A stretch of 43,864 bases of DNA from a virus. Location of the stretch: positions 1-43,864 of IMG/VR virus record IMGVR_UViG_3300008113_000286, one strand, 5' to 3'. How positions within the stretch are numbered: the stretch's first letter is position 1; every line of letters starts with the position of its first letter. Shown here piece after piece: positions 3,001-35,126 of the stretch. The translations under genes and the position numbers were made by a program. Below the pieces are notes generated by a model that saw only the letters and a program-made list of their open reading frames with translations, ran no database searches and had not been told where the DNA came from.

Positions 3001-6000
3001 GGTTCCAACAAAGTTGGAATAAGCACCAGTTGCTGGTGCCGCACCTTGATGACTACCACCCGGAGCACTAATGTTATAACGAACTGCATCACCTGTTTTT
3101 AGGTTGTGTGCTGTGGCAAAGTTAATACGGTTATCTACTGTAATAACACGAGATGCACTTGAACCGTCAATGATCAGTGTTCTGCGAATAAGCTGATTGC
3201 TTAACTTAATGTTATCACCACCTCTATAGCTGACTAGGAATCTAGTACTGTAGTTTTGCAGTGTTGGAGCTCGCATCCAAGCTAGGTTATCGAGTCCAGT
3301 TGTTAGTGCCACCGGAACAAAGTTAACGTTAGCATTAACTAAACTCATCCAATACATACCGTTATAGATAACCATGTCACCGTAGACATATGTATCTGCT
3401 GCATTCCATTCGCCTTTGAAGAACGTACCAACTAATGTTGGGTTCGATACTTTAAATTGGTGAACAGTGCCTGAACCTACTCCGGACATGTCAACTAGGT
3501 CAGAGTTGGTATATGAACCAACCCAGCTGTTATGCAAGGAGAATTGGTTGGCTGATTGGCCGGTTTGTGCACCGCCACGAGGGCCTGTGTTTACGGAGTT
3601 GTTAACAAAGTATTGACGCCCGTCAACTAGACCGTTAATTACACGACCGCCGGCCCATACGCGATATGTTACGCGGTCACCAGTAATTAGACCGTGTGCA
3701 GTAGAAATAATTCTATCCGAAGCTGCTGAAACAACAGTGTTTAAAGAACCGTTGACAACAACGTCACGTGCAACAATTGTTGCTAGACCTTGTGCTAGAC
3801 TTTCTCCATATACCAATGAACTAGTAAATGTATGAGCACCAGTACTGCCTAATGTGGCATATCTACGAATTGGAATATTTGCCAATGCGTTAGCTTTGGT
3901 AGTAGCTAACTGGAAGGAATCAATACCAGTTCTAATAGTATAGTATGCGGCGTTGTTTGTAAGAGCATTGTATCCGCTAGGTGGAACATCAGCAGCAAGG
4001 CCTTCACCGATTGCATATACCAATGCACCTTTGCTGTATGTTACTTTGCCACCAGTGATATAACCATGATTAGGAATTATAAATTCGCCAGTTAACATGT
4101 TTAGATAATCAGCGGGTTCAAATTTAAACTCTCTTACAGGAACTGTAGTATTTGTTGCTAGATTAAAGGTAGTAGCTGTAGTAGATACAACTTGATACCC
4201 GCCGTCCAGTGTGCCTGTTGAAGAAACGTCCTCTAGTGTGTGATTACCTACTGTGCTAGATGCTAGGCCCTGTAACGGAATCGAACTGTAGTAGTGAACA
4301 AATGTCCATGCTGTACCTGCTGCTGTAATATCCAATGGATATTGTGCATATGCTAGTGCAGGTGTAAATGCCAAGGCAAATTCGTTGTTGTTATACACCA
4401 ACGCATAGTAAACTGAGGCACCAACTAATGAAATTGCCACACCACCGAAGGCAGCAATTGTACCAGCTGCGGTGCTAGAAATTGCAACTGTATCACCGGT
4501 TCTTAGATTATGATTAACTAACGTAAAGAAATCGTTGGTTGCATCAGCTGCACCAGTCGAGAATGTACGTTGTGCGCCCTGTGTGGTATCAAACAACTGG
4601 AAGCTACCGTATAATTTTTCAACTGCGGTTGCTTCTTGTATGTCACCGGCTGTAGTTCCTCTAAAACCTCTAATCACTGTTAGTGTTTGACTGACAATGT
4701 TGCTAATATAAATGTACTCGTTGCCAACTTTAATAGTATCGCCGATATTTAGACCAACTGCTGTGGTAATGGTCAATGAAGTAGCAGTTGATGTAGCAGC
4801 CGATAGTAATCCACTAACGGACCATGCAATATCGTTTACTACGTTTCTAACAATATAACTCTTGTTATTGACTAAACCTGGGAAACCAACAGTACCAGAG
4901 CCAATATCAACACCGCCTCTATTTTCGTAACGTACCACAGCATTTTCGGTGAAAAGCTGATTTTGGGTAGCTACAACGATTCTGTTGGCATATTGATTTT
5001 GCACAAATGGGCTTGAGAATGCAACTTCGCCTGCGGCTGCACCCGGAACAATACCAGTGATTTGCACAGTTGGGTTACCGGACGGTAAAACTGATGTGCT
5101 GTATGCCTGTAATTTGAAAGTGTTGTTATCAATTGGCACCATATAATACTGTGCGTTCAATGTCAGACCCTGAATCAACTGAGCTGCCGATTGTTGCGAT
5201 AGGTATGTTCTAACACGTGGCCAGTTTTGGCCAGTTGCATCTGTAATTTTGTCAAACAATGGACCTGGATAGTCTGGAGTTTGTGGATACACGCCCTGAC
5301 CAGTATACGCAGTTGTTAGGCCAGTAATAACCGTTCCGCCAACACGTCTGTTTGTGGCAAATCCGCCATGATTTTCTAAGTAGAAACTGTTTGAATATAG
5401 ATTCTCATCGATGGCTGTAACAAAGAATCTACCACCACCTGCAGTAGTTGTACCTGCCGAACCTGCAGTAGTAGCACCAGTAAAGTCTAATAAAGGACCA
5501 GTTGGCGTAATACTTAGAGAGAATTCAGTGGTTGAGTTTTGATTAAACACATTACGGATATAATACTTCTGGTATGAAGTAAATGTATCTGGAGTGTTAA
5601 CCACTGGAGTTGGCAGTGTTGAACCCGAACCTGCTCTTAGGATGATTGCTTGACCTTCACGCACCCAGGCTGGGACGTTTTGGAATAAGCAAATAACTCT
5701 GTCACGTGCTTGACCAGTTGCTCCAACTGTCTGAGATGTAAAGGTAGCAACGGTCATACCTGGGTGTAGTGAAAACAATCCGCCTGCTAGGGTTGTAACT
5801 GCACTAAAGTTAATCTTCAAGTTAGCTATCGCAGGACTGTATGGACCAGAACCTGTTGCAGTTTCGTTGGTATACAATTCAATTTCGTCTGCATTGATTC
5901 TGCTTACGAAATAGATAGCATTGGCAACTGGAGGGTTTGTACCGCCAGACCACGCTTGACCGTTAAAGCCAAATACCACTGGCTCACCTGTTACTAATCC

Positions 6001-8010
6001 GTGATTTTTAATGTAGATTCTGTCACTACCGGTTGGCACATCTTGTAATCCAAAGAACTTAGTAGTCTTGGCCTTCCAGTCATGGTATGCAACACGAGTT
6101 GCATTGACTGCAGGGTCGTTATGTAACTGTGCTCTGATACCAATAGTGGTAATATAATCCCAACGATTAAACGTTGTTGACCCGTTGCCGCCAGAGTTTA
6201 CAATACTATAGGTTTGTGTACTGCCGGCGTTAACGTTAATACCGCTGGTGTCAGTTGGGCCAGTCATTACAAAGCTAGTACCAGTTGGTGAATAGCTTGT
6301 AGAAGAAACAATGTACACACCGTTTAAGCTACTAACATCTGATCCACTGATTGTAATTTGTTGCTTGGGCCAAATGTTCAAACTAATATTTGTATTGTTA
6401 CCGCTTAATGATACTGTATAGTCTGGACTTCCACTGGTGCTGGCAATGCTTGAAATACCAGTGATAAAATCAACACCGCGCTTGTAGAACACAAATGTAT
6501 GTGTTCCAGAGCCAATACCGTTAAACTGCATTGGGTTAGTTGTAGCATATGCATCTTTTGGACTTGAGAACAACTTAAATGTATCAGTGGTAATGTTACC
6601 AACATACAAGAATCTACCATTTGTTGTACTATATGATGGCAAAGGACCTGCACCGAATGCAAAGTTAGCACTTACGTTGGCGTTGACCTGCGGAGCAGAT
6701 CCGCCGGAACTTGTACCTACGTATGCAATTCTGTCACCTAACGCTAGTCCGTGTGCTGGTACAGTAATAACGTGTGTGGAAATGTTAATACCGGCTTGTG
6801 TAATTTCACGTCTAACAGTACCTACGTGGAACGGTTCGCTTGGTAGGAAATAACCAGTACTGTAATTAGTACCTGTCATTGTTACACCTGAGCCAACAGT
6901 ACTAGTTTTACTTAATGTGTAAACACCAGCACCACCAAATGTACCGGATGTAAAACCAGTAATAATTGTACCTTCAGTTACGCCTGCACCTCTAACTAGC
7001 ATACCAACCGATACAACACCGGATGTCATTGCAGAAATTGTCAAGTTAGTTGTAGCAATAGTGGCTGTAAACACAGCACCTGTGCCGGCCAATGTTTGAC
7101 GATCGTCAACTTCACCGCTGGAGTTACTAATAGTAACTGGATTAAAGTTTAAGAAAGTATTTGATAAAGTGTTTACAAGATAAAATTGACTGTTATTAGC
7201 AAAACCGTGTTGTTGTTCAGTTCTTACAGTTAACTGTGCAGGAGCTCCTGCATTGGTTGTAATAGGACCGTCGGTGTTTGCCGCAGTGTTATCTAATAAT
7301 ACCTGAGCACCAACATAAAAACGTCCACCGGTGATAGTGGTGTATGGACTTAACAGATTAACTGGAGTTGTTGTGTTACCACCTTGAACGGCTTTGGCTT
7401 CATAGCTAAATGCTGTATCAGTTGTACGTTTAACAATAAATGTGCCTTCTGCCGATGCACTATCAACTCCGCGAACATCAATCGGAGTACCTGTTACAAA
7501 TCCGTGTGATGTGGAAGTGGTCACTGTAACAATCTTAGTACCAACTGTGGTAATAGATACAATACCAGTTAATGGGGTATCGTTGGCAATGCTGTGAAAT
7601 GCTGGGACGTCGTTTAGACGCTCGACTGTTTCCCATTTAGTTGCTTGTAGACCGTATTCAAAGTCAGTGTCGATCAGCGTATTAGGCTGAGATACACGGA
7701 ATTTAGACACCGGATCTTGATAAGTATCCGACGGTTCAAACTTTGTTGCATCTTGCTCAATAAAAATCTGCAAGGTGTCCGTAGCAGACATTGCAGAACA
7801 GTCGTATTGGAATACGAATGTAGTTTCATCAGTTGACGCATTGTAACTTCTGCTGATAATCTTTTTCGAAGTATCTGCAAAGTTATATAAAATAATGTTG
7901 TCAGTTAAATTAGTAACTAACAATACTCTCTTTTGTGACACATTTCCGTCGACAGCAATTGAATCTGTTGATGGAGAAAATGTGTAATTAAATATTAGTG
8001 ACTTAGCCAT
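1..8010 (-). CDS. Giant repeat-rich virion/fibre-like protein, C-terminus beyond the window
   Basis: An open frame of 2670 codons runs from an ATG at 8010 (N-terminus MAKSLIFNYTF) to the left edge without a stop, so the protein is C-terminally incomplete here. From about residue 165 to 1800 it carries a degenerate module with the core [NAS]-H-[GN]-[LFY]-x-T-G-[DE] followed by G-L-x-x-x-x-x-Y-Y-V and F-x-L strands; about ten copies are visible (DNA near 7500, 7208, 6750, 6000, 5365, 4508, 4060, 3700, 3100 and 2620). Two cysteine-containing C-x-R-D-[LV]-[AG]-Y segments follow near 1950 and 1535. No catalytic motif was seen. The composition (Thr, Ser, Gly, Val, Asn) and position at the end of a late structural run suggest an extended beta-structured fibre or whisker protein. 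A late-type promoter lies just upstream, with AAGGAT as ribosome site. The virion role is inferred; the open frame is directly seen. Confidence 0.8.
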   Translation of the reverse strand, partial: MAKSLIFNYTFSPSTDSIAVDGNVSQKRVLLVTNLTDNIILYNFADTSKKIISRSYNASTDETTFVFQYDCSAMSATDTLQIFIEQDATKFEPSDTYQDPVSKFRVSQPNTLIDTDFEYGLQATKWETVERLNDVPAFHSIANDTPLTGIVSITTVGTKIVTVTTSTSHGFVTGTPIDVRGVDSASAEGTFIVKRTTDTAFSYEAKAVQGGNTTTPVNLLSPYTTITGGRFYVGAQVLLDNTAANTDGPITTNAGAPAQLTVRTEQQHGFANNSQFYLVNTLSNTFLNFNPVTISNSSGEVDDRQTLAGTGAVFTATIATTNLTISAMTSGVVSVGMLVRGAGVTEGTIITGFTSGTFGGAGVYTLSKTSTVGSGVTMTGTNYSTGYFLPSEPFHVGTVRREITQAGINISTHVITVPAHGLALGDRIAYVGTSSGGSAPQVNANVSANFAFGAGPLPSYSTTNGRFLYVGNITTDTFKLFSSPKDAYATTNPMQFNGIGSGTHTFVFYKRGVDFITGISSIASTSGSPDYTVSLSGNNTNISLNIWPKQQITISGSDVSSLNGVYIVSSTSYSPTGTSFVMTGPTDTSGINVNAGSTQTYSIVNSGGNGSTTFNRWDYITTIGIRAQLHNDPAVNATRVAYHDWKAKTTKFFGLQDVPTGSDRIYIKNHGLVTGEPVVFGFNGQAWSGGTNPPVANAIYFVSRINADEIELYTNETATGSGPYSPAIANLKINFSAVTTLAGGLFSLHPGMTVATFTSQTVGATGQARDRVICLFQNVPAWVREGQAIILRAGSGSTLPTPVVNTPDTFTSYQKYYIRNVFNQNSTTEFSLSITPTGPLLDFTGATTAGSAGTTTAGGGRFFVTAIDENLYSNSFYLENHGGFATNRRVGGTVITGLTTAYTGQGVYPQTPDYPGPLFDKITDATGQNWPRVRTYLSQQSAAQLIQGLTLNAQYYMVPIDNNTFKLQAYSTSVLPSGNPTVQITGIVPGAAAGEVAFSSPFVQNQYANRIVVATQNQLFTENAVVRYENRGGVDIGSGTVGFPGLVNNKSYIVRNVVNDIAWSVSGLLSAATSTATSLTITTAVGLNIGDTIKVGNEYIYISNIVSQTLTVIRGFRGTTAGDIQEATAVEKLYGSFQLFDTTQGAQRTFSTGAADATNDFFTLVNHNLRTGDTVAISSTAAGTIAAFGGVAISLVGASVYYALVYNNNEFALAFTPALAYAQYPLDITAAGTAWTFVHYYSSIPLQGLASSTVGNHTLEDVSSTGTLDGGYQVVSTTATTFNLATNTTVPVREFKFEPADYLNMLTGEFIIPNHGYITGGKVTYSKGALVYAIGEGLAADVPPSGYNALTNNAAYYTIRTGIDSFQLATTKANALANIPIRRYATLGSTGAHTFTSSLVYGESLAQGLATIVARDVVVNGSLNTVVSAASDRIISTAHGLITGDRVTYRVWAGGRVINGLVDGRQYFVNNSVNTGPRGGAQTGQSANQFSLHNSWVGSYTNSDLVDMSGVGSGTVHQFKVSNPTLVGTFFKGEWNAADTYVYGDMVIYNGMYWMSLVNANVNFVPVALTTGLDNLAWMRAPTLQNYSTRFLVSYRGGDNIKLSNQLIRRTLIIDGSSASRVITVDNRINFATAHNLKTGDAVRYNISAPGGSHQGAAPATGAYSNFVGTTGVPQTPIGGLVANRTYYVNVQGSTDITLHDTLAGAIEGGSGDTGNFVTAVNLTAVGTGTIHRFDLIENVTYTMNILSVTNDREMIVSDPYPAKSIQFNPQGSFTTVANLITDTVDIPENEIYIANHGLDTCVKVYYSVGPVGSGTAMGGLVDGTAYYVIKSDEDSFALATTVTNALLNIRIDITSTGTGFQHYFIAATAAGSSQLRYDNAGAFTTTAPSGTLYYTGQIGANIRDGVLTALPIIQETQVYVRPDCINVHRPFDGGVEINASTSPGVSITRQTRKYFRYQSGKGLQYSTGINFSPSIDVARITHDGTTYATVKTRRPHRLTVNSKIMIENVEAKDEYTAVKCERDLAYFIDGVRYDITLGTNYNAVFLGLAEVNTLDFSATVVTAINNTKTLVAALPNVAASATATSRSNAFFTEVLDIATNGRANADAVTFTNPGTATASQIAAKDRIAANKAFIAAEINAWIAGTYPTATHDVAKCTRDVGYALNALAYDILYGGNSATVQQAAFFFYFDSSGVSGIYTQDKTQTVAAYNRLQAIISQVVQNQAITGGFGNPSGKSTGNALTQDTTGTAASAGDGSILQTLVQITEDVINSDSQLIAISGLPAIVYPNVAWALDELETAKTAIEAAKDSIIANVVRGAPYSQPAGGGEYFVINNIIDDFTFRYATNGVPINLAPSGFPSLFVHSWTDAVVRAGVFDDQNGIFYEYDGKHLNAVRRSSTAQLGGTASSTSGSRKLTGTDTNWTKQLRAGDRIVVRGQPLKVVAVISDTEIHFQPTYRGSSRSGIVITKTLDLKIPSYRWNKDTCDGNGPTGFNLNIHRMQMAYVDYSWYGAGKVRYGFKGPDGKVFYAHELIHNNVEIEAYMRSGNLPARYQIENGAAPTFAPSLYHWGASMIMDGGFEDDKAYLFTVASGSAGNDTVTINQALAGSPVPILSLRLAPSVDSGLVGALGDRDIINRMQIALDSVGVVVSNATSRPASFRLVLNGALAQQA

Positions 8011-18182: not shown

Positions 18183-19352
18183 TTAGCTGAATTTAACGTT
18201 ACCGTCAGTGATGTCAACCTTACCTAGGTAGTCAGCAGCATTGCCCAATGAGCTAGCTGTGTTTGTTAACTCAACATAACCATAACGTGTCATGAAGCTA
18301 ACTACTGGTTCGAATGTTGATGGGTCCAATACAACACCACTGCTCATCAATGGAATGTATGGGCAATAGAATGCTGGAGCATCAGATTCACTAGAACCTT
18401 TGTAACCAACTAGTACGGATGTGCTATCAGCAGCATAACCGTCAACATAAACACGCATTGCACTGTTCAATGTACCAACAAACTTAGTGTTTGTAGGTGC
18501 TTCGAAAGTACCTTCTGTAGTGCGAGCAAAAGCAGAAGTTGTAGCGGATTGTAGGATTGTCAATGCTAGTGGAGAAACCACAGCATAGTTACCTGCACCA
18601 CGACGTGTACGTTGTGCGATCAAGTTTGCAACACGATTGATTTGAACAGCTAGAGCAGCGTGTTCGTCACCAACGAATGTAGCAGTACCAGATACAGCAG
18701 CTTGGTTGTAAGTTTGTGTAGCTGTACCAGCTAACGAACGCAACGAAGCCAATACTTCTTGGTCGATTTCAGCAGTAATTTCTTGTGCTAAAGCAGCCAT
18801 GATTTCTGCTTCGATGTCAATGCCTTGTTGGGCTTGTGCATCTTGAGCAGCTTCAAACGTCCAGCGAGCTGACAATTTACGTGTCTTAGCTTCGACTGTC
18901 TGTTTCAAGATTTGAATAGACATACGCTTACCTGCTTGACCTTCTAGGCTAGCTGTTGAGTTAGCTTTAGGTGTAGCATCTGTATCGTTACCAGAGTAAG
19001 CAGCAGCAATCTTGAATGGACTGAATGCTTCTTCACCAGCTACAACACCGTTTCCGCTATCTGCATAACGAACACGTAGAGTATGAATTTGACCAACTGG
19101 TCCTGTCATTGGCTGAACACCTACCAATTCGTTAGCAATAACGGTTGGCATGACACGACGAATAACCGGTAAAATTACGCGGTTTAATGTTGCAACGTTT
19201 CCAGCGGAAGTTGCACCTGCTGTGGCACTCTCAGACAAATACTTACGGGTATTTTCAAGAGTAGTTGCCATTACTGTGCGCTTTGTACCTTGTAGGCCTT
19301 CTAATAGAGCCTCTTTGGTTTCTGACCAGCGCGATTCGAGTAGTTCTGACAT
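18183..19352 (-). CDS. 23: Major capsid protein (gp23-like)
   Basis: A 389-aa protein starting MSELLESRWSETKEALLEGL. The order of conserved blocks matches T4-type gp23: an N-terminal propeptide helix, N-R-V-I-L-P-V-I-R-R-V-M-P, the segment P-M-T-G-P-V-G-Q-I-H-T-L-R-V-R-Y, then a C-terminal F-M-T-R-Y-G-Y. It is shorter than T4 gp23 (521 aa), as expected for compact aquatic relatives. A candidate prohead-protease site L-S-E|S lies at residues 39-42, which would remove the propeptide. It follows scaffold and protease genes in T4 order, has a strong AAGGAG ribosome site, and ends at a strong terminator, consistent with very high late expression. Assignment rests on sequence recognition and synteny. 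Confidence 0.95.
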   Translation of the reverse strand: MSELLESRWSETKEALLEGLQGTKRTVMATTLENTRKYLSESATAGATSAGNVATLNRVILPVIRRVMPTVIANELVGVQPMTGPVGQIHTLRVRYADSGNGVVAGEEAFSPFKIAAAYSGNDTDATPKANSTASLEGQAGKRMSIQILKQTVEAKTRKLSARWTFEAAQDAQAQQGIDIEAEIMAALAQEITAEIDQEVLASLRSLAGTATQTYNQAAVSGTATFVGDEHAALAVQINRVANLIAQRTRRGAGNYAVVSPLALTILQSATTSAFARTTEGTFEAPTNTKFVGTLNSAMRVYVDGYAADSTSVLVGYKGSSESDAPAFYCPYIPLMSSGVVLDPSTFEPVVSFMTRYGYVELTNTASSLGNAADYLGKVDITDGNVKFS

Positions 19353-19363
19353 ATTAGTTCTCC

Positions 19364-20455
19364 TTAAACTTTAAGTCCCGCAAGCTTGCGGATTGTGAAT
19401 ATCTCAGCAGTTTTTTCCCCACTGCTGATTTGATGTGCCTGTTTATTGCCTGTGATTTCTGTTGATTCTGTTAATGCTTTTTTCTTTGGTGCGTCACCGG
19501 CCATTACAGCAGGCACATACTTGTCGTATGCTACGCGAAGTTTATCTGTTGCCACTGATTCTAGCAACTCGTTCATTACTGTACGCTTGTCTCCAGTTAG
19601 AGGTCCTAAAAGTTCACTCATAATGTCTTTACGGGACGCAAGATCTTTCGCAATGCGAAGTTCTCTGTCTTTACTTTCAACGATTTTTTGATGATCTGCA
19701 ACAATCTTAGCTGCCTCTTCGAGTTCAACTTGCTTCTGATTAACTACTTTTAATAGTTTAGAAGTTTCGCTTCTTTCGTTTAGGTGGCTTGCTGCATATT
19801 CGCTAGCAAATGATTCGAAGATACGACGACCGAAGTCGTTTTTGCGAGCAAGTTCAATGTCTTCTTTTAGTTGTCCCATTTCGGCACGTAGCGTTTTAGA
19901 TACGGCTTCTTTAACTAAAGTTGCTGATTGAGTTACGAATTGCTTCTTAACTGTTTCAAATTTAGCTCTGCTTTCGCGAACTAATTTAACTTTGGTTTCA
20001 GCTAGATCTTTCTTATCGGTGTGGAATTCTGCTATTTCTTTGGCTAGTGCATCCACGATAAATGATTCTAACTTGGCAACGTTTGCTGCGACACTTCTGC
20101 GATCTTCATGAAGTTCAGAAAGTTCAGAAACTAATTTTTGGAGAACAAAGCTTTCCATTTTCTTAGCATCGTCTTTCATTTTTCTCTTATACTGTGCTTT
20201 TGCTTCGATTAGACCTTGACGATCTTCTGCAAGCTCTGAAAGCTCAGCGTGTAACCGGTCTTGCAACATTGACTCAACTGCTTCAACCATTGCTGACTTG
20301 TCATGCTCATACTTCTGAGCAAACTCTTCACGTAGTTCTGCTGTAACTTGATCTCGGCTTTCTTGAATTCTCGTCTGCCAAGCTTGTTCAATTTCCGATT
20401 TCATCTCTTCGGAAATCACATTGTTTTCAAATAATTGTTTTACAAAATCTAGCAT
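19364..20455 (-). CDS. 22: Prohead scaffold protein (gp22-like)
   Basis: A 363-aa, highly charged, mostly helical protein beginning MLDFVKQLFENNVISEEM. Long Lys/Glu/Asp-rich stretches with heptad-like Leu and Val between about residues 20 and 270 indicate coiled coil, as in T4 gp22, which forms the internal core of the prohead and is later digested by gp21. Candidate protease sites [L]-x-E|S occur near the C-terminus (L-T-E-S at 328-331 and L-L-E-S earlier). It lies between protease and capsid genes in the conserved T4 order, with an AGGAGAATC ribosome site. The C-terminal tail carries basic residues that could contact the shell; that point is inferred. Confidence 0.9.
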   Translation of the reverse strand: MLDFVKQLFENNVISEEMKSEIEQAWQTRIQESRDQVTAELREEFAQKYEHDKSAMVEAVESMLQDRLHAELSELAEDRQGLIEAKAQYKRKMKDDAKKMESFVLQKLVSELSELHEDRRSVAANVAKLESFIVDALAKEIAEFHTDKKDLAETKVKLVRESRAKFETVKKQFVTQSATLVKEAVSKTLRAEMGQLKEDIELARKNDFGRRIFESFASEYAASHLNERSETSKLLKVVNQKQVELEEAAKIVADHQKIVESKDRELRIAKDLASRKDIMSELLGPLTGDKRTVMNELLESVATDKLRVAYDKYVPAVMAGDAPKKKALTESTEITGNKQAHQISSGEKTAEIFTIRKLAGLKV

Positions 20456-20470
20456 GTGATTCTCCTACTG

Positions 20471-21103
20471 TTATTTGAGTCCCAAGATGATTTTCTTGAG
20501 ACTTTCTGCTATGTATTTCTGTGCCTTTGGATCGCCTTGTACTTCCTGTGCTATTTTAAATGCGTTATATCCGCCTGTTTGATTCATAATGTGTTCATAA
20601 ACTGGTGTTGGGTAAGCTCCCGGGGCGGAAGGTTGAGCTACGATATCAACTGTGATAATTTCAAATTCGCTCACCTTTCCACTACCATCATCGGAAACAT
20701 TACCGGAACCTCTGCTTGATACGCCAAGTTTGACTCCACTCTCCAACATGGTTGAAATAAGTTGTCCCATAGGAGTTGGTAGAATCTTTAATTTTCCATA
20801 ACCATTTGGACCATCCATCCACATCTTTGTTAGCATGTGGCTGACTCGATCCAAATTAATGCGTAGATCCGCAGGATGATCAACTTCTCCTAGTACTGAG
20901 TAACCACCTGCAATCTGTTCATTGACGGTTTTGACAGCCCTACCTATTTCGGAGACAGGGTAAATTCTCTGATTTGCGTTACGGATATCCCCTTGAATGC
21001 AGATACCGTTCAAATGCAGAGTCTTCTTCCCATCTATATCAGAGGATTCAAGGACCAGCCCAGCTTGGTCAAAACTCAGATGCTCACTAAGGAAATTTTT
21101 CAC
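20471..21103 (-). CDS. 21: Prohead maturation protease (gp21-like, family S80 type)
   Basis: A 210-aa protein with a GTG start preceded by GGAG. It has the T4 gp21 protease hallmarks: G-E-V-D-H-P (His76) and G-V-S-S-R-G (Ser129/130), plus an N-terminal N-G-I-C-I-Q-G-D-I-R-N-A-N-Q-R-I-Y-P segment typical of the family. The fold is related to herpesvirus assemblins. It cleaves head proteins after Glu in [LI]-x-E and then itself. An I-A-E|S sequence lies 10 residues from its own C-terminus (198-201), a plausible self-processing site. It is located between the acidic core protein and scaffold gene as in T4. Confidence 0.93.
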   Translation of the reverse strand: MKNFLSEHLSFDQAGLVLESSDIDGKKTLHLNGICIQGDIRNANQRIYPVSEIGRAVKTVNEQIAGGYSVLGEVDHPADLRINLDRVSHMLTKMWMDGPNGYGKLKILPTPMGQLISTMLESGVKLGVSSRGSGNVSDDGSGKVSEFEIITVDIVAQPSAPGAYPTPVYEHIMNQTGGYNAFKIAQEVQGDPKAQKYIAESLKKIILGLK

Positions 21104-21116
21104 CTAAAGGCTCCGA

Positions 21117-21953
21117 TTACTTATTGCGGAACAAACTTGTAGTGTTCGCTCCACCTTGTTCGCCTGCGCCTTTCTTTTCAGCGCCGTGTCCTGGCTGTTT
21201 TGTATTGAAAGCATTACCTGCTTTACCGCCTGGAACATTAATATTGCCAGCATTGTCTTCTTTAGCTTTGTTACCAGCTAGACCACCTGCTGTGCCTTTG
21301 TCGTTGCCTTCACCACCTCTAGCAGTGTTAGCAACAGTACCGCCCATATCATTTTTCATGTTGTCGATAGTTGATTTTGTATTGCCGCCACCTTGTTCAG
21401 CAGAGCCTTTCTTCTCAGCACCATGGCCCGCACCAACTTTCTCTACGTATTCACGTACAGTAGCCATTTGTGGTTCGAATGCATCTTTCATGCCCATGCC
21501 CGTGTTGTCAGCGTCCATGTCGCTTGGTCCGCCCATGTTATCCATGTCTGGCTCTTCGTGATCGCCGCCTAGACCTGCTGCTAATTCGTCAAACTTAGAC
21601 ATTAGTTCGTCAAACCCGTCAACTACGTCTTGCTTAGTTGCTGGCTCGTCCATGCCTTCTTCATCTTCGCTATCTTCTTCACCTGCTAGATTACCTAATA
21701 GGTTATCTGTTGAATCTGACTCTTCGCCTTCTTCATCGTCGCCTTCGGCTACTTCGAAGTCTTCTTCAACTGCTTCTTGTTGTTTCTTTTTTGCTTCTTC
21801 TTCTTCTTCATCGCTCATTTCGGACTCAATTAGTCCTTCGTAAATTTCGCGTGACTGCGCAACAACGTATTCGTGGAATAGTTCTTCCGCTTTATCTTGT
21901 TCACCATTAACTAGGTGCTCGAGCATTTGCTCAATAGTGGTTTTATCCGCCAT
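21117..21953 (-). CDS. Acidic prohead core-like protein (gp68 position)
   Basis: A 278-aa protein starting MADKTTIEQMLEHLVNGEQ. The N-terminal 45 residues form a helix (E-E-L-F-H-E-Y-V-V-A-Q-S-R) of the kind seen in T4-like core proteins, ending at a candidate gp21 site L-I-E|S (41-44). Residues 45-135 are extremely acidic (runs of Asp/Glu), and residues 185-278 are Gly/Asn/Lys-rich with two copies of G-H-G-A-E-K-K-G-x-x-E-Q-G-G. A strong AAGGAG ribosome site is present. Location between portal and protease genes fits the gp67/gp68 core proteins of T4, which are much smaller, so this would be an enlarged equivalent. Function is inferred from position and composition. Confidence 0.7.
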   Translation of the reverse strand: MADKTTIEQMLEHLVNGEQDKAEELFHEYVVAQSREIYEGLIESEMSDEEEEEAKKKQQEAVEEDFEVAEGDDEEGEESDSTDNLLGNLAGEEDSEDEEGMDEPATKQDVVDGFDELMSKFDELAAGLGGDHEEPDMDNMGGPSDMDADNTGMGMKDAFEPQMATVREYVEKVGAGHGAEKKGSAEQGGGNTKSTIDNMKNDMGGTVANTARGGEGNDKGTAGGLAGNKAKEDNAGNINVPGGKAGNAFNTKQPGHGAEKKGAGEQGGANTTSLFRNK

Positions 21954-21989
21954 GTTGGTCTCCTTAGGGTATTAATTTGGCTGTCGAGT

Positions 21990-21996
21990 TATTTAC
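21990..21996 (-). promoter_or_regulatory. Possible late promoter variant GTAAATA
   Basis: A six-of-seven match to the ATAAATA core on the minus strand lies in the 89-nt gap between the DUF115-like gene and the acidic core protein gene, about 37 nt upstream of the latter's ATG. It may start a head-operon transcript, but the mismatch makes this weak. Confidence 0.3.
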
Positions 21997-22042
21997 TACT
22001 ATTATTACAATTCGGTGTTATATAGTAGTTTTTTGATCGTTT

Positions 22043-22669
22043 TCAGGCTTTTTTAAGATTTATTGCAAATCTTTCTGATAACTCGTTATATGAAATGTTC
22101 TTGTAATTATTTAGTCCAGAACTAAATGCAGGGGGGGTCATAAACTTTTTTCCGACCAGTCTGTGGAACTTTACATCTTGAAAATCTCTAACTATCTTTT
22201 CAGTTTGAGATACCCAATTACCAAAGAATGTAGGAGGCTCATAGCTTTTCTTGTAATTAAAGGTATCTGCGTAGACGTTATTAAACTTGCCTTGAACTCC
22301 TTCAAAGTCAAATCCTAGAATATAGATGTCTTTATGTCCCATTGATGCTGCAAGCCATAGTGCTGTAGGCCCACTGCTCCAGCCTTTATGTGGGTCAAAG
22401 AAGTTAATATTTGAAGTTTCTAGAACGCCCTTGTTTGGATTTGTCCAAACATTATTGGTATTATGATATCCAGCAGCAATAATTTCATTGACCATCTTAA
22501 CATCTACTGCTACTAAATGATCGACTTCTGCTTCTCTGTACACAGCATTGCAGGCAAAAATTGTGCCGTGCGGCTGCAATTCGGCGATATCAACTACAAG
22601 TCTGCTGATGCCGTTTCCTAGTACAAATGCGGGTTTATTGGGGTTGTTGTTCTGCGGGTGGCTGGCCAT
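22043..22669 (-). CDS. DUF115/MptE-like enzyme (putative) inside the head operon
   Basis: A 208-aa protein from an ATG at 22669 (M-A-S-H-P-Q-N); a TTG at 22690 would add 7 residues and has no better ribosome site. The pattern F-V-L-G-N-G-I-S-R, then C-N-A-V-Y, then L-V-A-V-D-V-K-M, and finally S-S-G-P-T-A-L-W-L-A-A-S-M-G...I-Y-I-L-G-F-D resembles DUF115/MptE-like proteins, a Rossmann-type group that includes 6-hydroxymethylpterin diphosphokinases and sugar-transferase-related proteins. The C-terminal 60 residues are aromatic and not recognised. It overlaps the upstream 81-aa gene by 35 nt and lies between portal and core protein genes, where T4 has no such enzyme. Substrate and role are unknown; glycosylation or other modification of a virion component is speculative. 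Confidence 0.6.
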   Translation of the reverse strand: MASHPQNNNPNKPAFVLGNGISRLVVDIAELQPHGTIFACNAVYREAEVDHLVAVDVKMVNEIIAAGYHNTNNVWTNPNKGVLETSNINFFDPHKGWSSGPTALWLAASMGHKDIYILGFDFEGVQGKFNNVYADTFNYKKSYEPPTFFGNWVSQTEKIVRDFQDVKFHRLVGKKFMTPPAFSSGLNNYKNISYNELSERFAINLKKA

Positions 22670-22880
22670 ACATCTGTCTAATAAAACCAAGTTCGGATTC
22701 TTGCTCTGCTTCGTGTGCTTCGCTTTGCATACGCAACATATTAATTTGCTTGAATGTAAGTCTAATCTTACGGGTATCTTCTTGATCTAAAATAGACACG
22801 TCATTACTCGACTCGTAGCGACGATCGATAGTATAGTTGTTGCTCTTGTCGTTAAAGTAGAAAAACTCTAATAATTTCAT
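22635..22880 (-). CDS. Small protein after portal gene (gp67 position)
   Basis: An 81-aa charged protein starting MKLLEFFYFNDKSNNYTIDR. It has an aromatic N-terminus, a central helix (T-F-K-Q-I-N-M-L-R-M-Q-S-E-A-H-E-A-E-Q) and a Pro/Gln-rich tail (P-P-A-E-Q-Q-P-Q). It lies 23 nt downstream of the portal gene, the position of the T4 prohead core protein gp67 (80 aa), and its size matches, but it is far less acidic than gp67, so homology is uncertain. The stop overlaps the start of the DUF115-like gene. A small core or portal-associated protein is inferred. Confidence 0.6.
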   Translation of the reverse strand: MKLLEFFYFNDKSNNYTIDRRYESSNDVSILDQEDTRKIRLTFKQINMLRMQSEAHEAEQESELGFIRQMYGQPPAEQQPQ

Positions 22881-22903: not shown

Positions 22904-24625
22904 TCAAGCCGGTGGAGGGGTTGTTGCGCCACTGTCTGGTAGTGGAGGTTCGCCGCCCTCTGCGCCCGGTTCAGCTGCTGCTGCCATATCTAGAGGAGCT
23001 TCTGCTGATTGATCTGCCATGTCTGAACTCATACCGCCCGGTGTAATGCCCATTGAGCGCATATCGCCCGCTGCATCATTACTTGGTGTTAGCTTGCCAC
23101 CGTTCTCTTCTTTCCACATACGTTCGTTTTCTGTGATCTCTTCTTGCGTTAGCCCTAAGAAACGTTTTAATGCAAAACGCTTACTGATGTAAGGAGCTTC
23201 TTGTAGACTAGTAAACGAACTAATACGTGCATTATCCAGCTCGCTTTGACGATACGCAGCAAAGTTTTGCGGTGGATTAAACTTCAATTCAAACAAGCTG
23301 TTATCAATATTAATGCCTTGCTTTACAATCCAAAGTTTAAATTCTAAGTCAAATTCTTCAACCATTAAGCTTTGTAGACGTTTGCAATACTCGTTGAATC
23401 TTAGCTCTTGAATATATGCAGTACCTACTTTGCCATCGTTAAATGACTGCTGACTATCATCTGCACCTGTTGGTAGATAGCTGCTTGGAATACGCAAGGC
23501 GCGGAATAACTTGTTGGTAAAATACTTCAAGTCATCGATTTCGCCTAGGTTAGTGCCGCCGGGCAGTGTATCAACTTTACTACCGCGACCTTCTGCTGTC
23601 TGCGGAAAGAAGTAGTCTTCGTTGATGCTTAATGGATTGTAGCTAGCATCGATTGCAGAAGATCCGCCGGTTGAGCTAGGAATACGTCTTTGATGAATTT
23701 CGTTTTTTACACGTTCAACAAAGCCCATGGCCATGTGCGCTGGCATATTACCAACGTCAATATAAAAGATACGGCGCTCTGGCGCACGTTGTATACGATA
23801 GATAATAATCGCATCTTCTAGTAATTCTTTCTGTTTATATACTTTAAAAACACTTTCTAGCAGGCTGTTGCCAAAAGGATAGTTATTATCAAGACCTTCA
23901 CTTAAACTAATATGAACAACGTTTTTAGCATCGATGGCAATTTCGTTGGTGCCTGTGGTAAAGCGTGAACCAGTTTGTTGTGGGGCGGCGCCAACCATGC
24001 CGCGACCTAAGGCGCCACCGGTGACATAACCGCCACCTCCTGCTGGACTGCTATTATTGTTTGGGTGAATTGATGTTGCTACTAGATCTTTAAAGTTAAA
24101 ATTAAAGTCCTGGATAACATACTGCTCAGGTGTCTTACCTTCACTTTCATTTACAATAACTTTAGTAACCTTTGCTGGATCAACATAGAACCATTTAAGT
24201 GTTTCTGGATCTCGTACAAAAAAGCAATCGCCATACTTAAAGGTATTACGAACAATTCTAAAAACTCTATTTTCAAATTGTTGTATCTTGTTCCACTTCT
24301 GTAGACTTTCTTTTAATAGTTTAACTTCAGTTGCTGTTGGTGCACCTTTAAAAAATATTTGAAACGATGTAGTATTCTCTTTATTCTTTTGGCTGCAGAA
24401 TTCTGCTAGGATATCAAGGGCAGCATTAATCTCACTGTCCATGTCCATGGTGTTGTATTGTTGATAACGCTCAACACGATTTGGCGTACCTGCATATACG
24501 TCTGGTAGATAGTTTGAATAGTTAGTACGGGCCGGTCCGGGTTTACCACCGCCGTTACCTAGCGGGCTAAAAGTGCCGCTTGTACCATCAATTTTTACAG
24601 GTGTAAAATGCTTTTTCCAGCTCAT
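22904..24625 (-). CDS. 20: Portal vertex protein (gp20-like)
   Basis: A 573-aa protein starting MSWKKHFTPVKIDGTS. It contains the T4-type portal signature: D-M-D-S-E-I-N-A-A-L-D-I-L-A-E-F, then F-K-Y-G-D-C-F-F-V-R-D, Y-V-D-P-A-K-V, then R-I-Q-R-A-P-E-R-R-I-F-Y-I-D-V-G-N-M-P, and L-P-G-G-T-N-L-G-E-I-D-D. The last 60 residues are Ala/Pro/Gly-rich. The size is close to T4 gp20 (524 aa). A dodecameric portal forms the DNA channel at the unique vertex and nucleates prohead assembly. It heads the head cassette, 12 nt after the tape-measure-like gene, rather than following tail-tube genes as in T4. Confidence 0.95.
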   Translation of the reverse strand: MSWKKHFTPVKIDGTSGTFSPLGNGGGKPGPARTNYSNYLPDVYAGTPNRVERYQQYNTMDMDSEINAALDILAEFCSQKNKENTTSFQIFFKGAPTATEVKLLKESLQKWNKIQQFENRVFRIVRNTFKYGDCFFVRDPETLKWFYVDPAKVTKVIVNESEGKTPEQYVIQDFNFNFKDLVATSIHPNNNSSPAGGGGYVTGGALGRGMVGAAPQQTGSRFTTGTNEIAIDAKNVVHISLSEGLDNNYPFGNSLLESVFKVYKQKELLEDAIIIYRIQRAPERRIFYIDVGNMPAHMAMGFVERVKNEIHQRRIPSSTGGSSAIDASYNPLSINEDYFFPQTAEGRGSKVDTLPGGTNLGEIDDLKYFTNKLFRALRIPSSYLPTGADDSQQSFNDGKVGTAYIQELRFNEYCKRLQSLMVEEFDLEFKLWIVKQGINIDNSLFELKFNPPQNFAAYRQSELDNARISSFTSLQEAPYISKRFALKRFLGLTQEEITENERMWKEENGGKLTPSNDAAGDMRSMGITPGGMSSDMADQSAEAPLDMAAAAEPGAEGGEPPLPDSGATTPPPA

Positions 24626-24637
24626 ATATTTTCCAAA

Positions 24638-27250
24638 TTATACGGGTGACGAAAATACGTCACTGCCAAGACCTTGTTGTACTGTAAGTTGTTTATCATT
24701 AAGTGAGTGTACGCCTCGATTAATTACGATTAGTTGATCCATCTTAGTATTTAAGCTCGCTAGCAAGGTCTCTGCACTTTCTGGCGGCTTGCCGGGCTTC
24801 TGTGATTCATTTTTCTTTTTAATTTCTTCTGCGGCTTTTTCTTTTATTTCAGCTTCTGCTTTGGCTTTATTTTCCATTTCGCGTCTGCTAGCTTCGTTGC
24901 CTCCGGTAGCTGGACTTCCGTTTTGATTCTTGTAGGCATAGGCTGCAACTTGTTCCGGGCTCATATTAGTGAAGTCTACTGCACTTGCAGCAGAAGATGT
25001 TGGACTTGCTGCTCCGGCGCTATTACTAGTGCCTCCACCGCCCCCGCCCCCGCTACCACCGCCACCAAACTTGCTACCGCTTGGCATTTTAAATTCTGGG
25101 ACATTAAATGCACCCTTAATATCACCATTCGCTAGCTGTTTTCGATCATTTGCACGTTCTACTTCTTTAGCTTTTTTATCATCTTCAATAGCTTTGATAT
25201 TAGCTGCCCTAACTCGATCGCGTTCTTCTGCTCTTGCATCTCTGTCTTTTTGTTTTGCTTCGAGTTCTTCTTTTTCTGCTTTAATCTGTTCTCTTGCAGC
25301 AGTGATACCATCTCCGCCACCAAAGAATTTGGCAATTTTTTCAGCAATACTTAACCATATATCAACATAATCTAAACCAAACGCAATAAATTTATCACGT
25401 AGCCATGCCATCTTATCGCCTAGCATTTCCATAATAGAACCAAAGGTCCATCCGTTGTCCCGTAGTGCTTTAAACAGAGCAACTACCACAACGATTGCTG
25501 CGGTAATTGGTAAGAATGATGCTGCAACTGCAAGCCCTGTAGCAATATACTGTGCCATGTTTGTTAACAATACAGGTATCATAGATAAGAAAGTAGGAAT
25601 CAAAGTTGCACCAATGACTGTAGCAACACCTGCTAATACAGGAAGCCAATTATCTACTAAAAAATTTCGAATACTAAGGAATACCGGTAATACATTTTCT
25701 TGAATCATTTTACCTAGCCAAGTAAATGCCGGTGTTAGATATTCAATAACTGTCTTCGCAGCAGCTAACAAATTATCAACCAAGTACACAAATGCCGGTA
25801 TAATTAAATCAGTTATAACTGCCGCTGCAAACATAACAGCAGGTACTAGATATTCTTGAAAAATTGGAATTACATATTTTTGTACTACTTCGATAAGCAT
25901 GTTCATCATACTCATCATTGAATTTAAAACACCGCTGGCATTAGCTAAAACCATTTGAAAAGTATTGCTAATTTCAGCAAGACTCTGTTTCATTGATTCC
26001 ATAGCAGCAGCTTGACCGTCAGTAGTTTTTGTAGCATCGTTTTGAGCTTTTGCTCCGTCTACCAATGCATTCTTGCCAATTCCAGCAGCAGCAGTGAACA
26101 TATTTGTTTGTTTAGCAAAGTCTGCACTATATCTACCAATATCTTTAAATTGAGAATTGGCTGCTTTACCTTCTTCGGCTAAAAGATTGTTTAATTTGTT
26201 TCTTTCTTCTAAGCTAATCTGTTCTCCACGTTGCGTCTTTTGAGCAAAGTCTGCCATCATAGCGGCTGATTTTGGCATCATGGACATGAAACGTTGACTT
26301 TCTTCAGTGGTTGCAGAACCAGTGGCCATGATATCTTTAGCAACATCTCGTAACGGTCCGGGCAATCCAGTAACTGTATTTCTGAATGACTCAGCAACTT
26401 TATCATCCATGCCAGCCATTGCTGCTTGATACTGCGCATCTGACATTAATTTTTGCTGTGCATCTTCTTGTTGTTTTCTAGTCTCGCCGGTTACTTTTGC
26501 CAACAAGTCCATTTCTTTTAGGTACGATTTAGTTCCTTGTACTAATTGAGCGTTTGTCATATTAGTATTCTTACCTCCTTGCATTGCAAGTTTGGTATAG
26601 TTTGCTAATCCTTGATTAACGTCTTCTGTAGAATATCCAAGGTTATATAAATCTTTACTTGTTGCTCTTAATGTTTTTGTGATATCAGCAAATCGCTTCC
26701 CACCGGCTTCTGTGTTACCACCTAAAAATCTAAGAGCTTCTCCGTTTTTGCTTACCAACGATGCAAAGTCTTTCATCGTCATGCCTGCATTGCTTGCAGC
26801 TCCGGCAAATGCATTTATACTTCCACCAAAAGTTGCTCCGCTTTGTGCTGCGCCTTGATATGCCGCTGTTGTATTTTCAACAGCTTTGGCAACTGCTGCA
26901 AACACTGTGCCCATAATAGGTATCTTATCAAATACAGCAGCAGCGCCGGAAAGACTGTCACCCATATTAGCAAGTCTATCGATTACTCCAACTACTCCGT
27001 TGCTAAAGTTAACGATTGTCTTAGCAGCAGTTCCTAATGATCTTCCAAATTGATTAGCTGCATTGCCGGCAGCACTCATTCCACCGGCGGCTCCCCCTCC
27101 AGATCCGCCGCCACCTCCACCACCTCCACCGCCGGCTGTATTCCGCTGAACTCCTGTCATTGCTTTAAGGATTGCTTGAAGTGTGGCTTCAGAAGCAGCG
27201 TTTTTCGCTTCTACGTTGCCTACACCAGGAATGTCAATTGTTACAGCCAT
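24638..27250 (-). CDS. Tail tape-measure-like protein
   Basis: An 870-aa protein starting MAVTIDIPGVGNVEAKNAAS. It has a poly-glycine linker (ten consecutive Gly near residue 40-50), a long helical Ala/Gly/Met-rich region (residues 60-430), strongly hydrophobic segments at about 455-600 that could span a membrane, a Lys/Glu-rich coiled-coil region (660-720), a second Gly/Ser linker, and a helical C-terminus with L-N-T-K-M-D-Q-L. This architecture is typical of phage tape-measure proteins, which set tail length and enter the host membrane. At about 0.15 nm per residue it would predict a tail near 130 nm. No lysozyme or peptidase motif was seen. It has its own late promoter and is followed by the portal gene. 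Confidence 0.75.
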   Translation of the reverse strand: MAVTIDIPGVGNVEAKNAASEATLQAILKAMTGVQRNTAGGGGGGGGGGSGGGAAGGMSAAGNAANQFGRSLGTAAKTIVNFSNGVVGVIDRLANMGDSLSGAAAVFDKIPIMGTVFAAVAKAVENTTAAYQGAAQSGATFGGSINAFAGAASNAGMTMKDFASLVSKNGEALRFLGGNTEAGGKRFADITKTLRATSKDLYNLGYSTEDVNQGLANYTKLAMQGGKNTNMTNAQLVQGTKSYLKEMDLLAKVTGETRKQQEDAQQKLMSDAQYQAAMAGMDDKVAESFRNTVTGLPGPLRDVAKDIMATGSATTEESQRFMSMMPKSAAMMADFAQKTQRGEQISLEERNKLNNLLAEEGKAANSQFKDIGRYSADFAKQTNMFTAAAGIGKNALVDGAKAQNDATKTTDGQAAAMESMKQSLAEISNTFQMVLANASGVLNSMMSMMNMLIEVVQKYVIPIFQEYLVPAVMFAAAVITDLIIPAFVYLVDNLLAAAKTVIEYLTPAFTWLGKMIQENVLPVFLSIRNFLVDNWLPVLAGVATVIGATLIPTFLSMIPVLLTNMAQYIATGLAVAASFLPITAAIVVVVALFKALRDNGWTFGSIMEMLGDKMAWLRDKFIAFGLDYVDIWLSIAEKIAKFFGGGDGITAAREQIKAEKEELEAKQKDRDARAEERDRVRAANIKAIEDDKKAKEVERANDRKQLANGDIKGAFNVPEFKMPSGSKFGGGGSGGGGGGGTSNSAGAASPTSSAASAVDFTNMSPEQVAAYAYKNQNGSPATGGNEASRREMENKAKAEAEIKEKAAEEIKKKNESQKPGKPPESAETLLASLNTKMDQLIVINRGVHSLNDKQLTVQQGLGSDVFSSPV

Positions 27251-34233: not shown

Positions 34234-34279
34234 ATTGATCTCCTTTTACATTGTACTACCTTACAACGAGAAGATCAAT
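34234..34279 (-). promoter_or_regulatory. Hairpin that may hide the gp47 ribosome site
   Basis: On the minus strand ATTGATCT (34279-34272) and AGATCAAT (34241-34234) form an 8-bp stem, with an inner TTGTA / TACAA stem. The 3' arm includes part of the AGGAG ribosome site and ends directly at the gp47 ATG, while the 5' arm includes the gp55 TGA stop. Confidence 0.55.
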
Positions 34280-35126
34280 CCCAATCGCTGCCGTCTACTG
34301 ACCCTGTGCTAACGCCACCACCGGGCATTCCGGTACCTGAGTTTTGTCTTGTCCAACTCGGATTCATTCCGTTCATTTCTAAAATATCGTCTCTAATGTT
34401 TTGATTTCGTTTTTCAATGTTAATGATTCTAACAAACGAATTAGTAACAGCAGCAGTATAGTACGCAAATGGATTATTTGATTTTGACTCATCGAATTGA
34501 AGACCAATTTGTGTAAGTTGAAGAATGGCCTGTCCACGCATTTCGTCGTTGTAGGTATACCCGCGGACGTTTCCTCTAGTTGCATATCTTTCACATAACT
34601 TAATAAACATGCGAGCTAGATTATTAGTCATCTTGCCGTGTTCTTTGTTAAATTCGCCGAGCTGTACATCACCTTTCCAGTGACTCTTTCCTACACAAAC
34701 TAGGTTATCATTTTCGTCAAACTTCCAATGCTGGAATGGGGGGAAGTTTACCTTCTCGTGACTGTCTGCCCTAGACTTTACAGTCTTCTTTCGACCCGGT
34801 GCAAGGGGAACATGATCAAAGGTCATTACTCTAAACACTACATCTTGCTTGCCGACTTTCTTATAGTCGACTTCAAAGTTTTTCTGCATTGCTTTCTTGT
34901 CTGTTAACAACGCCTGCTCGTGCAGTTGTTTGCCTAGTTTAACAGCTTTTGCACGTTTTGCTTCGGCAATAGTTCGGATATTAATTTTACTTAGGTCCGT
35001 GACAATCAGGTCATAATTATGATAGTCAGGATTAATAAAGGAGCAATATGTGTTCTTGCTTAAATGGATTTCTTTTAGTAGATCTTTGTTTGTTAAGTAC
35101 TTAATCTTCGGTATTGTTATTGTCAT
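34275..35126 (-). CDS. 55: Late-transcription sigma factor (gp55-like)
   Basis: A 283-aa protein, larger than T4 gp55 (185 aa) because of an N-terminal extension of about 90-100 residues (K-I-K-Y-L-T-N-K-D-L). The conserved core C-E-R-Y-A-T-R, R-G-Y-T-Y-N-D-E-M, Q-I-G-L-Q-F-D-E-S-K-S-N-N-P-F-A-Y-Y-T and I-I-N-I-E-K-R-N is typical of the T4 late sigma family (sigma-region-2-like). gp55 replaces sigma70 on host polymerase and recognises the TATAAATA late promoter, matching the ATAAATA cores found in this window. The C-terminus is Gly/Ser-rich and ends G-S-D-W-D. The ribosome site GAGG is 13 nt from the ATG, so expression may be modest. Confidence 0.93.
   Translation of the reverse strand: MTITIPKIKYLTNKDLLKEIHLSKNTYCSFINPDYHNYDLIVTDLSKINIRTIAEAKRAKAVKLGKQLHEQALLTDKKAMQKNFEVDYKKVGKQDVVFRVMTFDHVPLAPGRKKTVKSRADSHEKVNFPPFQHWKFDENDNLVCVGKSHWKGDVQLGEFNKEHGKMTNNLARMFIKLCERYATRGNVRGYTYNDEMRGQAILQLTQIGLQFDESKSNNPFAYYTAAVTNSFVRIINIEKRNQNIRDDILEMNGMNPSWTRQNSGTGMPGGGVSTGSVDGSDWD

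Follow-up and report, generated by a model that had tools for sequence, protein, structure and literature searches.

A DUF115/GT42-like gene with a fixed place in the head operon of uncultured T4-like phages may encode a virion glycosyltransferase

A large group of uncultured aquatic T4-like phages carries, at one fixed spot of the head operon, a gene for a small protein of the DUF115/GT42 superfamily. We describe it in a 43,864-nt virus record (IMGVR_UViG_3300008113_000286), the whole of which is called the window below. Although it belongs to this superfamily, the protein falls short of the individual cut-offs of both PF01973 and PF06002. We propose, with a probability of about 0.4, that it is a late-expressed glycosyltransferase that would transfer a CMP-activated sugar onto a virion protein, most likely a head protein; this proposal is built on sequence comparisons and predicted structures.

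The initial annotation held that the T4 order portal-core-protease is broken here by a Rossmann-type protein. This was borne out by the flanking genes, the portal, protease and capsid proteins matching PF07230, PF03420 and PF07068, respectively. The minus strand carries a head module of T4 type, which runs from the 870-aa protein to the major capsid protein in the order given here; the sigma factor gene is listed last:

24638..27250, minus strand: 870-aa protein of the same gene run, 12 nt ahead of the portal gene; ATAAATAA lies upstream
22904..24625, minus strand: portal protein (gp20-like; PF07230, 1.6e-109)
22635..22880, minus strand: 81-aa protein (p81) in the T4 gene 67 position (position and conservation; phrog_13986, of unknown function, 3.1e-5)
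22043..22669, minus strand: DUF115/GT42-like protein of 208 aa (motifs, profiles and fold)
21954..22042, minus strand: gap with a conserved late-promoter-like TAAATA and a strong Shine-Dalgarno sequence beside the following gene (gap comparison, Shine-Dalgarno energies)
21117..21953, minus strand: 278-aa acidic protein (p278) in the T4 gene 68 position (position; conserved in relatives)
20471..21103, minus strand: prohead protease (gp21-like; PF03420, 6.2e-24; phrog_207, 1.1e-54)
19364..20455, minus strand: scaffold-position protein (gp22-like; phrog_10922, of unknown function, 8.9e-76)
18183..19352, minus strand: major capsid protein (gp23-like; PF07068, 2e-99)
34275..35126, minus strand: late-transcription sigma factor (phrog_12791, 1.3e-82)

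The gp67 label of the 81-aa protein is our assumption from position only, and the gene 68 label of the 278-aa protein is likewise presumed from its position. The match of the gp22-like protein in phage MIJ3 is annotated as a scaffolding protein. Two long frames run off the window, one at 1-8010 (minus strand, at least 2,670 codons), which adjoins a 1,121-aa tail fibre protein, and one at 41076-43862 (plus strand, at least 929 codons).

The DUF115-like frame is a real gene under strong constraint. The mechanically delimited frame (22043-22690, minus strand, 215 aa) starts with TTG, seven codons upstream of the ATG at 22669. Because this internal ATG is the start in most relatives, the gene was taken as 22043-22669, with a product of 208 aa, in agreement with the coordinates of the initial annotation. 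The overlap with the upstream gene noted there was also found, the gene beginning 35 nt within the 81-aa gene. Among 99 different homologues, in each of which the in-frame ATG closest to such an overlap was taken, 73 have this ATG 26-41 nt inside the preceding gene; it lies at 77-83 nt in eight others and at 11 nt in one, and the remaining 17 lack it; at two more distant loci (L250 and L252) the gene adjoins the 81-aa gene with no overlap. The median dN/dS was 0.052 (57 close pairs; pair sets differ from gene to gene), and this value together with the fixed synteny led us to reject a chance open reading frame. Homologues often end in a conserved C-terminal tail of the QKxTI type, which the window protein lacks.

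One scan of viral contigs yielded 347 confirmed relatives. We compared 151 loci, namely 80 kept of these 347 and 71 from a second scan (seven contigs being fetched twice), and found the order portal, p81, DUF115-like gene, 278-aa protein in 148 of them. In two of the three exceptions (L104 and L137) the contig stops within the locus, and the third (L115) has another open reading frame in the 908 nt before p81. The gene p81 stood directly before the DUF115-like gene in all 151 loci, which had been found by likeness to the latter. With gp22 as a query that is independent of the gene, 80 loci were found, of which 18 were too short; all 62 assessable ones, that is, those reaching p81 or the portal, carry it. 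The conservation at this site in relatives, which the initial annotation had put forward as a check, is thus observed in both sets. Distant carriers (47% and 46% identity) keep the same place, one of them on a 335-kb contig. As to single loci, L115:1-908 is the sole assessable stretch without a portal before p81 and holds an unrelated, repeat-containing frame. The gp22 gene in L053, the gp21 gene in L060 and the 278-aa gene in L069 are each split into two frames, possibly by sequencing errors. The phage head module is also present on L250 and L251 (153 and 335 kb); these contigs were binned as Candidatus Neomarinimicrobiota and probably represent DNA of large phages.

The nearest cultured relatives of the carriers are jumbo phages, and those closest by portal or gp22 include PA5oct, Atu_ph07, Phosso, GAP32, SCTP-2 and a Vibrio phage. 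A phmmer search of the regions fetched from these six isolates and from an uncultured relative (L161) gave no match to the gene. Among 50,697 phage records, only the Pelagibacter phages HTVC008M and Mosig had relatives, all of them away from the head site; a scan of viral contigs with the gp22 of PA5oct returned one relative only. The Pelagibacter phage HTVC008M has relatives at L002:4180-4983 and 752-1309, and Mosig has one at L003:9998-10843; they lie beside gp59-like and ssb genes and, in HTVC008M, near genes for a phytanoyl-CoA dioxygenase and a carbamoyltransferase. A further relative (L260:5968-6819) is found about 1.5 kb after gp23 on another T4-like contig, binned as Gammaproteobacteria.

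In a tree of the family, the 19 head-site rows formed one group (96/87), to which none of the 11 fibre-linked rows belonged. The distances between the DUF115-like proteins tracked those of the portal (Mantel r 0.75; 0 of 999 permutations as high), with a remaining near-copy effect; the correlation with other head genes was 0.47-0.63, and two control pairs of head genes gave 0.64 and 0.43. Mean pairwise identity was 62.7% for the DUF115-like protein, 62.0% for p278, 65.2% for p81, 78.0% for gp20 and 89.0% for gp23.

Assignment to a family was approached with profiles. In Pfam, the window protein matched PF01973 (MptE-like/DUF115) at 20.7 bits (E 3.8e-4), below the curated cut-off of 34.6 bits, and PF06002 (CST-I, GT42) at 16.7 bits (E 0.0054), below the cut-off of 25 bits. 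At E ≤ 1, PF01973 was matched by nine of 35 family members (best 3.8e-4) and PF06002 by 21 (best 6.6e-4). NCBIfam gave no match for the 208-aa protein. In PHROGs, the protein matched phrog_30607 (unknown function, 1.3e-28) and phrog_4603 (alpha-2,3-sialyltransferase, 2.9e-5), both of which were matched by all 35 homologues. A profile search reached the sialyltransferase CstII at E 7e-5; with profile A2, built from 15 diverse phage homologues, nine PDB sequences fell below 1e-3, every one of them GT42, and a second more diverse profile found one entry below 1e-3, again GT42. Furthermore, hhalign aligned 53 phage homologues with 14 Maf-like domains, taken from gammaproteobacterial genomes, over 165 columns (probability 95.9, E 6e-9). 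No PF06002 match above the cut-off was found in 369 gammaproteobacterial genomes, and none to PF01973 in the five MAGs whose contigs carry relatives.

The initial annotation had named a clear match to a purely structural phage protein as one outcome that would speak against it. Such a family was rejected, the sole PHROG and Pfam matches being phrog_30607, phrog_4603, PF01973 and PF06002. Designed ankyrin repeats (4hb5, 2.7e-5) topped the first PDB profile search, made with 35 close homologues, and were likewise rejected; with profile A2 their E was near 2, and in the five alignments shown the likeness is a short SGxTxLxxAAxxGHKEI stretch with at most 9 bits per domain.

The predicted structure agrees with this placement. 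An AlphaFold model made with 35 homologues (m094a8d52a875) reached a pLDDT of 81 and a pTM of 0.81, residues 141-156 of the 215-aa model having a pLDDT below 50. VIA-align placed the Maf flagellin glycosyltransferase 5mu5 first (Z 13.5, 177 residues aligned, 3.8 Å), followed by the 6-hydroxymethyl-dihydropterin diphosphokinase (HPPK) 8sd5 (Z 10.3), CstII (1ro7; 10.1), SteA (9.7) and thiamin pyrophosphokinases (8.5), with mammalian sialyltransferases at 7.8 and lower. Foldseek against the PDB put GT42 sialyltransferases first (CstII, E 2.9e-5, with a low query TM of 0.46) and 8sd5 eighth (4.9e-4). Its nine chains below 1e-3 were seven GT42 enzymes, HPPK and PcrB, the last of which (probability 0.69) we set aside as an unrelated protein. 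Among predicted viral proteins there were 26 matches below 1e-3, mostly unnamed phage proteins, some of them called MptE-like or DUF115. The comparison with PF01973 and sialyltransferase-like families suggested in the initial annotation found both the DUF115 fold and GT42 matches. The DUF115/MptE-like Rossmann call itself stood at the level of the superfamily; MptE is not the closest relative, Maf having the top Z and the nine PDB sequences all being GT42. Thiamin pyrophosphokinases and SteA are built on largely the same fold, so that a glycosyltransferase cannot be deduced from the fold by itself.

These results also bear on the possibility that the protein is a pterin enzyme of the MptE kind, i.e. 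a 6-hydroxymethyl-dihydropterin diphosphokinase tied to a pterin or folate component, which we regard as very improbable. It draws on 8sd5, the HPPK of M. jannaschii, which scored Z 10.3 and 10.4 with two models (that of the window protein and that of a paralogue described below), and it is kept alive by a PTPS/QueD-like neighbour at the paralogue loci. Yet the Z for Maf is above that for HPPK, every PDB entry found below 1e-3 by the two more diverse profiles is GT42, and PTPS was found among none of the 17 window proteins scanned; the PTPS/QueD-like neighbour could equally serve 7-deazaguanine metabolism.

The G-N-G-x-S and S-G-x-x-A-L...G-F-D motifs on which the initial call was based proved invariant: G-N-G-x-S-R, C-N-A-x-Y-R-E, G-W-S-S-G-P-T-A-L and G-F-D are present in all 35 aligned homologues. 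In 15 chosen phage homologues, 24 columns are invariant in 15/15 (208-aa numbering): M1 (the start), G18, N19, G20, S22, R23, C40, N41, R45, L52, D56, E62, W75, G96, G100, G119, D121, N130, N131, Y133, T136, Y139, Q155 and N188. Distant marine homologues vary at some of them, e.g. from GNG to GNA or GNS. N19, N41, S99 and G100 are aligned with N9, N31, S132 and G133 of CstII; D56 corresponds by motif position to N51, where Maf-like proteins have an aspartate. The positions of R129 and Y156, which we take to be catalytic in CstII, are not kept: the HMMER alignment places G96 and E123 there, the latter being Q in most relatives. Two Maf-like sequences have a cysteine at the place of Y156. The alignments to CstII stop before H188, presumably its general base. 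From these correspondences, the site is conserved on its nucleotide side and lacks the known GT42 catalytic set; this may reflect a chemistry of its own, a different donor or a loss of activity.

We considered whether a former enzyme had turned into an assembly factor or core component, its nucleotide-binding fold being kept for a structural or chaperone role in the prohead. The fixed place beside the core genes would fit such a role, as would the replacement of R129 and Y156. Yet most of the invariant motif residues also occur in paralogues at non-head sites, the Shine-Dalgarno sequence is weak (see below), and an [LI]xE motif, which we take to be a site of the prohead-protease type, occurs within the 25 residues before GNG in none of 35 homologues. 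We consider this reading rather unlikely.

The initial annotation had suggested, from the overlap and the late context, that the gene is expressed together with the head proteins. The gap after the gene measures 59-97 nt (18 in one locus) and contains TAAATA in 92 of 93 different gaps, compared with a mean of 12.5 and a maximum of 23 in 50 rounds of dinucleotide shuffling. TAAATA resembles the late promoter consensus. In the cultured relatives PA5oct, GAP32, SCTP-2 and the Vibrio phage (L084, L087, L088 and L089), inspection by eye showed a gap with a T-run hairpin followed by ATAAATA; in the carriers inspected, the gap is shorter than in these relatives and the promoter-like part is kept. Median Shine-Dalgarno energies were -3.15 for the DUF115-like gene (26 of 36 loci with a suitable ATG), -3.3 for the portal and 0.1 for p81, and -8.8, -7.3 and -9.2 for the 278-aa protein, gp22 and gp23. 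A Shine-Dalgarno sequence as weak as that of the portal, and unlike those of p278, gp22 and gp23, suits an enzyme or a low-copy protein. On the simplest view, the gene joined the portal unit at its end, immediately ahead of what would be the late promoter of the core, protease and capsid genes. The suggested co-expression fits the late-type context and is refined in that the gene would close the unit of the portal and the gene 67 position.

A divergent second copy, 30-31% identical to the window protein, was present in two of 14 large related contigs (L249:7380-8012, on a 199-kb contig, and L248:7628-8221, on a 282-kb contig). The same two contigs were the only carriers of PF00793/KdsA among 15 searched; one KdsA tested scored above the NCBIfam equivalog cut-off for KDO-8-P synthase (386 vs 314 bits). 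PF00793/KdsA was absent from the other 13 of the 15, and PF02348 (CMP-sugar synthetase) from all 14 large contigs, records that may be fragments in both cases. A scan with the paralogue gave 80 loci (L286-L365), which share one order, fibre-DUF115-PTPS-KdsA-GT8-UvsE-SOD; a fibre-like gene was found in 78, a GT8-like gene in 76, a PTPS/QueD-like gene in 74, a UvsE-like gene in 72, KdsA in 56 and an SOD-like gene in 47. KdsA is missing from 24 loci, three of which end less than 600 nt from the paralogue. UvsE-like and SOD are names that we give here, the former protein matching an endonuclease. The fibre-like protein has short regions that match PHROGs of virion structural and tail fibre proteins, and the GT8-like protein matches a glycosyltransferase family (phrog_1962, 2.5e-24). 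With the paralogue model (pLDDT 91), VIA-align again placed Maf (13.2) and CstII (12.3) first, ahead of HPPK 8sd5 (10.4), thiamin pyrophosphokinases (up to 9.7) and SteA (9.3), with a tail near 5; Foldseek alone gave no match below 1e-3 for this model. The paralogue cassette is possibly a fibre glycosylation island.

The strongest rival of virion glycosylation is a modification of the host surface. In that case the enzyme would alter the LPS or capsule of the host at a late stage, which might, for example, keep progeny from re-adsorbing to debris or exclude other phages, and its place in the head operon would reflect late timing only. GT42 enzymes do act on lipooligosaccharide, to judge from the molecule name of 9c08, KdsA, an LPS-precursor enzyme, is present in many paralogue cassette loci, and phage LPS genes including KdsA and NeuA have been proposed to alter the cell surface (PMC5332604). 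This alternative, which we judge somewhat unlikely, has to face the constant position of the gene next to p81 in the 151 loci found by likeness, and the presence of no other sugar enzyme among the 17 window proteins scanned with Pfam and/or PHROGs. A DNA modification enzyme was rejected for lack of support, the gene lying in a late head operon and no base-modification partner being seen among the proteins scanned.

For a glycosyltransferase acting on the virion, we infer catalysis, donor, acceptor and transcription unit as follows. Judging from gene order and promoter-like sites, the portal unit would be transcribed late, with the DUF115-like gene last in it. Ribosomes on, or starting within, the 81-aa gene would make modest amounts of the protein, as its start position and Shine-Dalgarno strength suggest. 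From fold and motifs, it would bind a nucleotide sugar in the pocket formed by GNG, CN, D and SG, and the sugar may then be passed to a protein of the growing particle, a step suggested by context; the place in the head operon does not name the acceptor. The donor would be a CMP-activated sugar, perhaps an ulosonic acid such as KDO from the host. A KDO-like donor is suspected because the paralogue loci carry KdsA and because a Maf enzyme can use KDO; the link is indirect, since PF02348 was found in none of 14 contigs and 13 of 15 are without KdsA. A wider version, in which a DUF115-like enzyme, translated from a start inside the gene at the gp67 position, provides built-in, lineage-wide head glycosylation, with a CMP-activated acid sugar (KDO- or nonulosonate-like) placed on a prohead protein, and a sister enzyme together with KDO-8-P synthase does the same for the fibre in some phages, seems unlikely.

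What stands out is how closely the gene is tied to the head operon. To our knowledge, the textbook pathway of T4 head assembly has no recognised glycosylation step. The conserved place implies either a post-translational modification of the capsid or an enzyme fold reused in assembly, and a capsid modification, if true, would have consequences for adhesion, stability or defence evasion. A sugar-enzyme-like gene at a fixed place of the head operon suggests that its carriers may decorate their own particles, or the host, with sugar. In the titles and abstract starts of the open-access literature, a DUF115-like head-operon gene and its operon link are not named, and in the accessible text of a jumbo phage comparison (PMC7824862) the words DUF115, MptE and sialyl occur 0 times. 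In a marine virus genome, KdsA and NeuA have already been reported together, as cell-surface genes (PMC5332604).

Glycosylation of virions has a precedent in mycobacteriophages, with glycans on the capsid and tail tube protein (Freeman 2023, as cited in PMC12619734). Those phages are different from the T4-like carriers studied here. We know of no link between that glycosylation and a T4-type prohead operon.

Among bacterial enzymes, the closest is the central domain of Maf (PF01973; 5mu5), with its fold common over 177 residues and its profile match of 95.9%. In the alignment, the S-G-P and G-F-D of the phage protein are matched by A-G-P and G-V-D in Maf-like proteins, whose I-D-P has its aspartate at the invariant D56. 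The substrate of Maf, flagellin, is a structural protein that self-assembles; a Maf enzyme of Clostridium O-glycosylates it with Neu5Ac or KDO (PMC11339370). Unlike the phage protein, which is a single domain of 208 aa, Maf has three domains; Maf-like proteins contain a T-V-T-N insertion that is missing from the phage protein, and no flagella genes lie near the phage gene. The GT42 enzymes CstI and CstII and the Pasteurella enzyme 9c08 (PF06002) share with the phage protein the succession of GNGxS, CN, SG and GxD motifs and are the best PDB sequence-profile matches for the diverse profiles. The phage protein differs from CstII in the change of N51 to D56 and in R129 and Y156, and it falls short of the PF06002 cut-off. 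Archaeal MptE/HPPK (8sd5) has the same superfamily fold, with a Z below that of Maf, and no pterin gene was seen at the head site. The nearest proteins from isolates, those of phrog_30607 in HTVC008M and Mosig (E 1.3e-28), share the same motif set from GNGxSR to NNxY, but are encoded beside gp59-like and ssb genes, outside the prohead operon.
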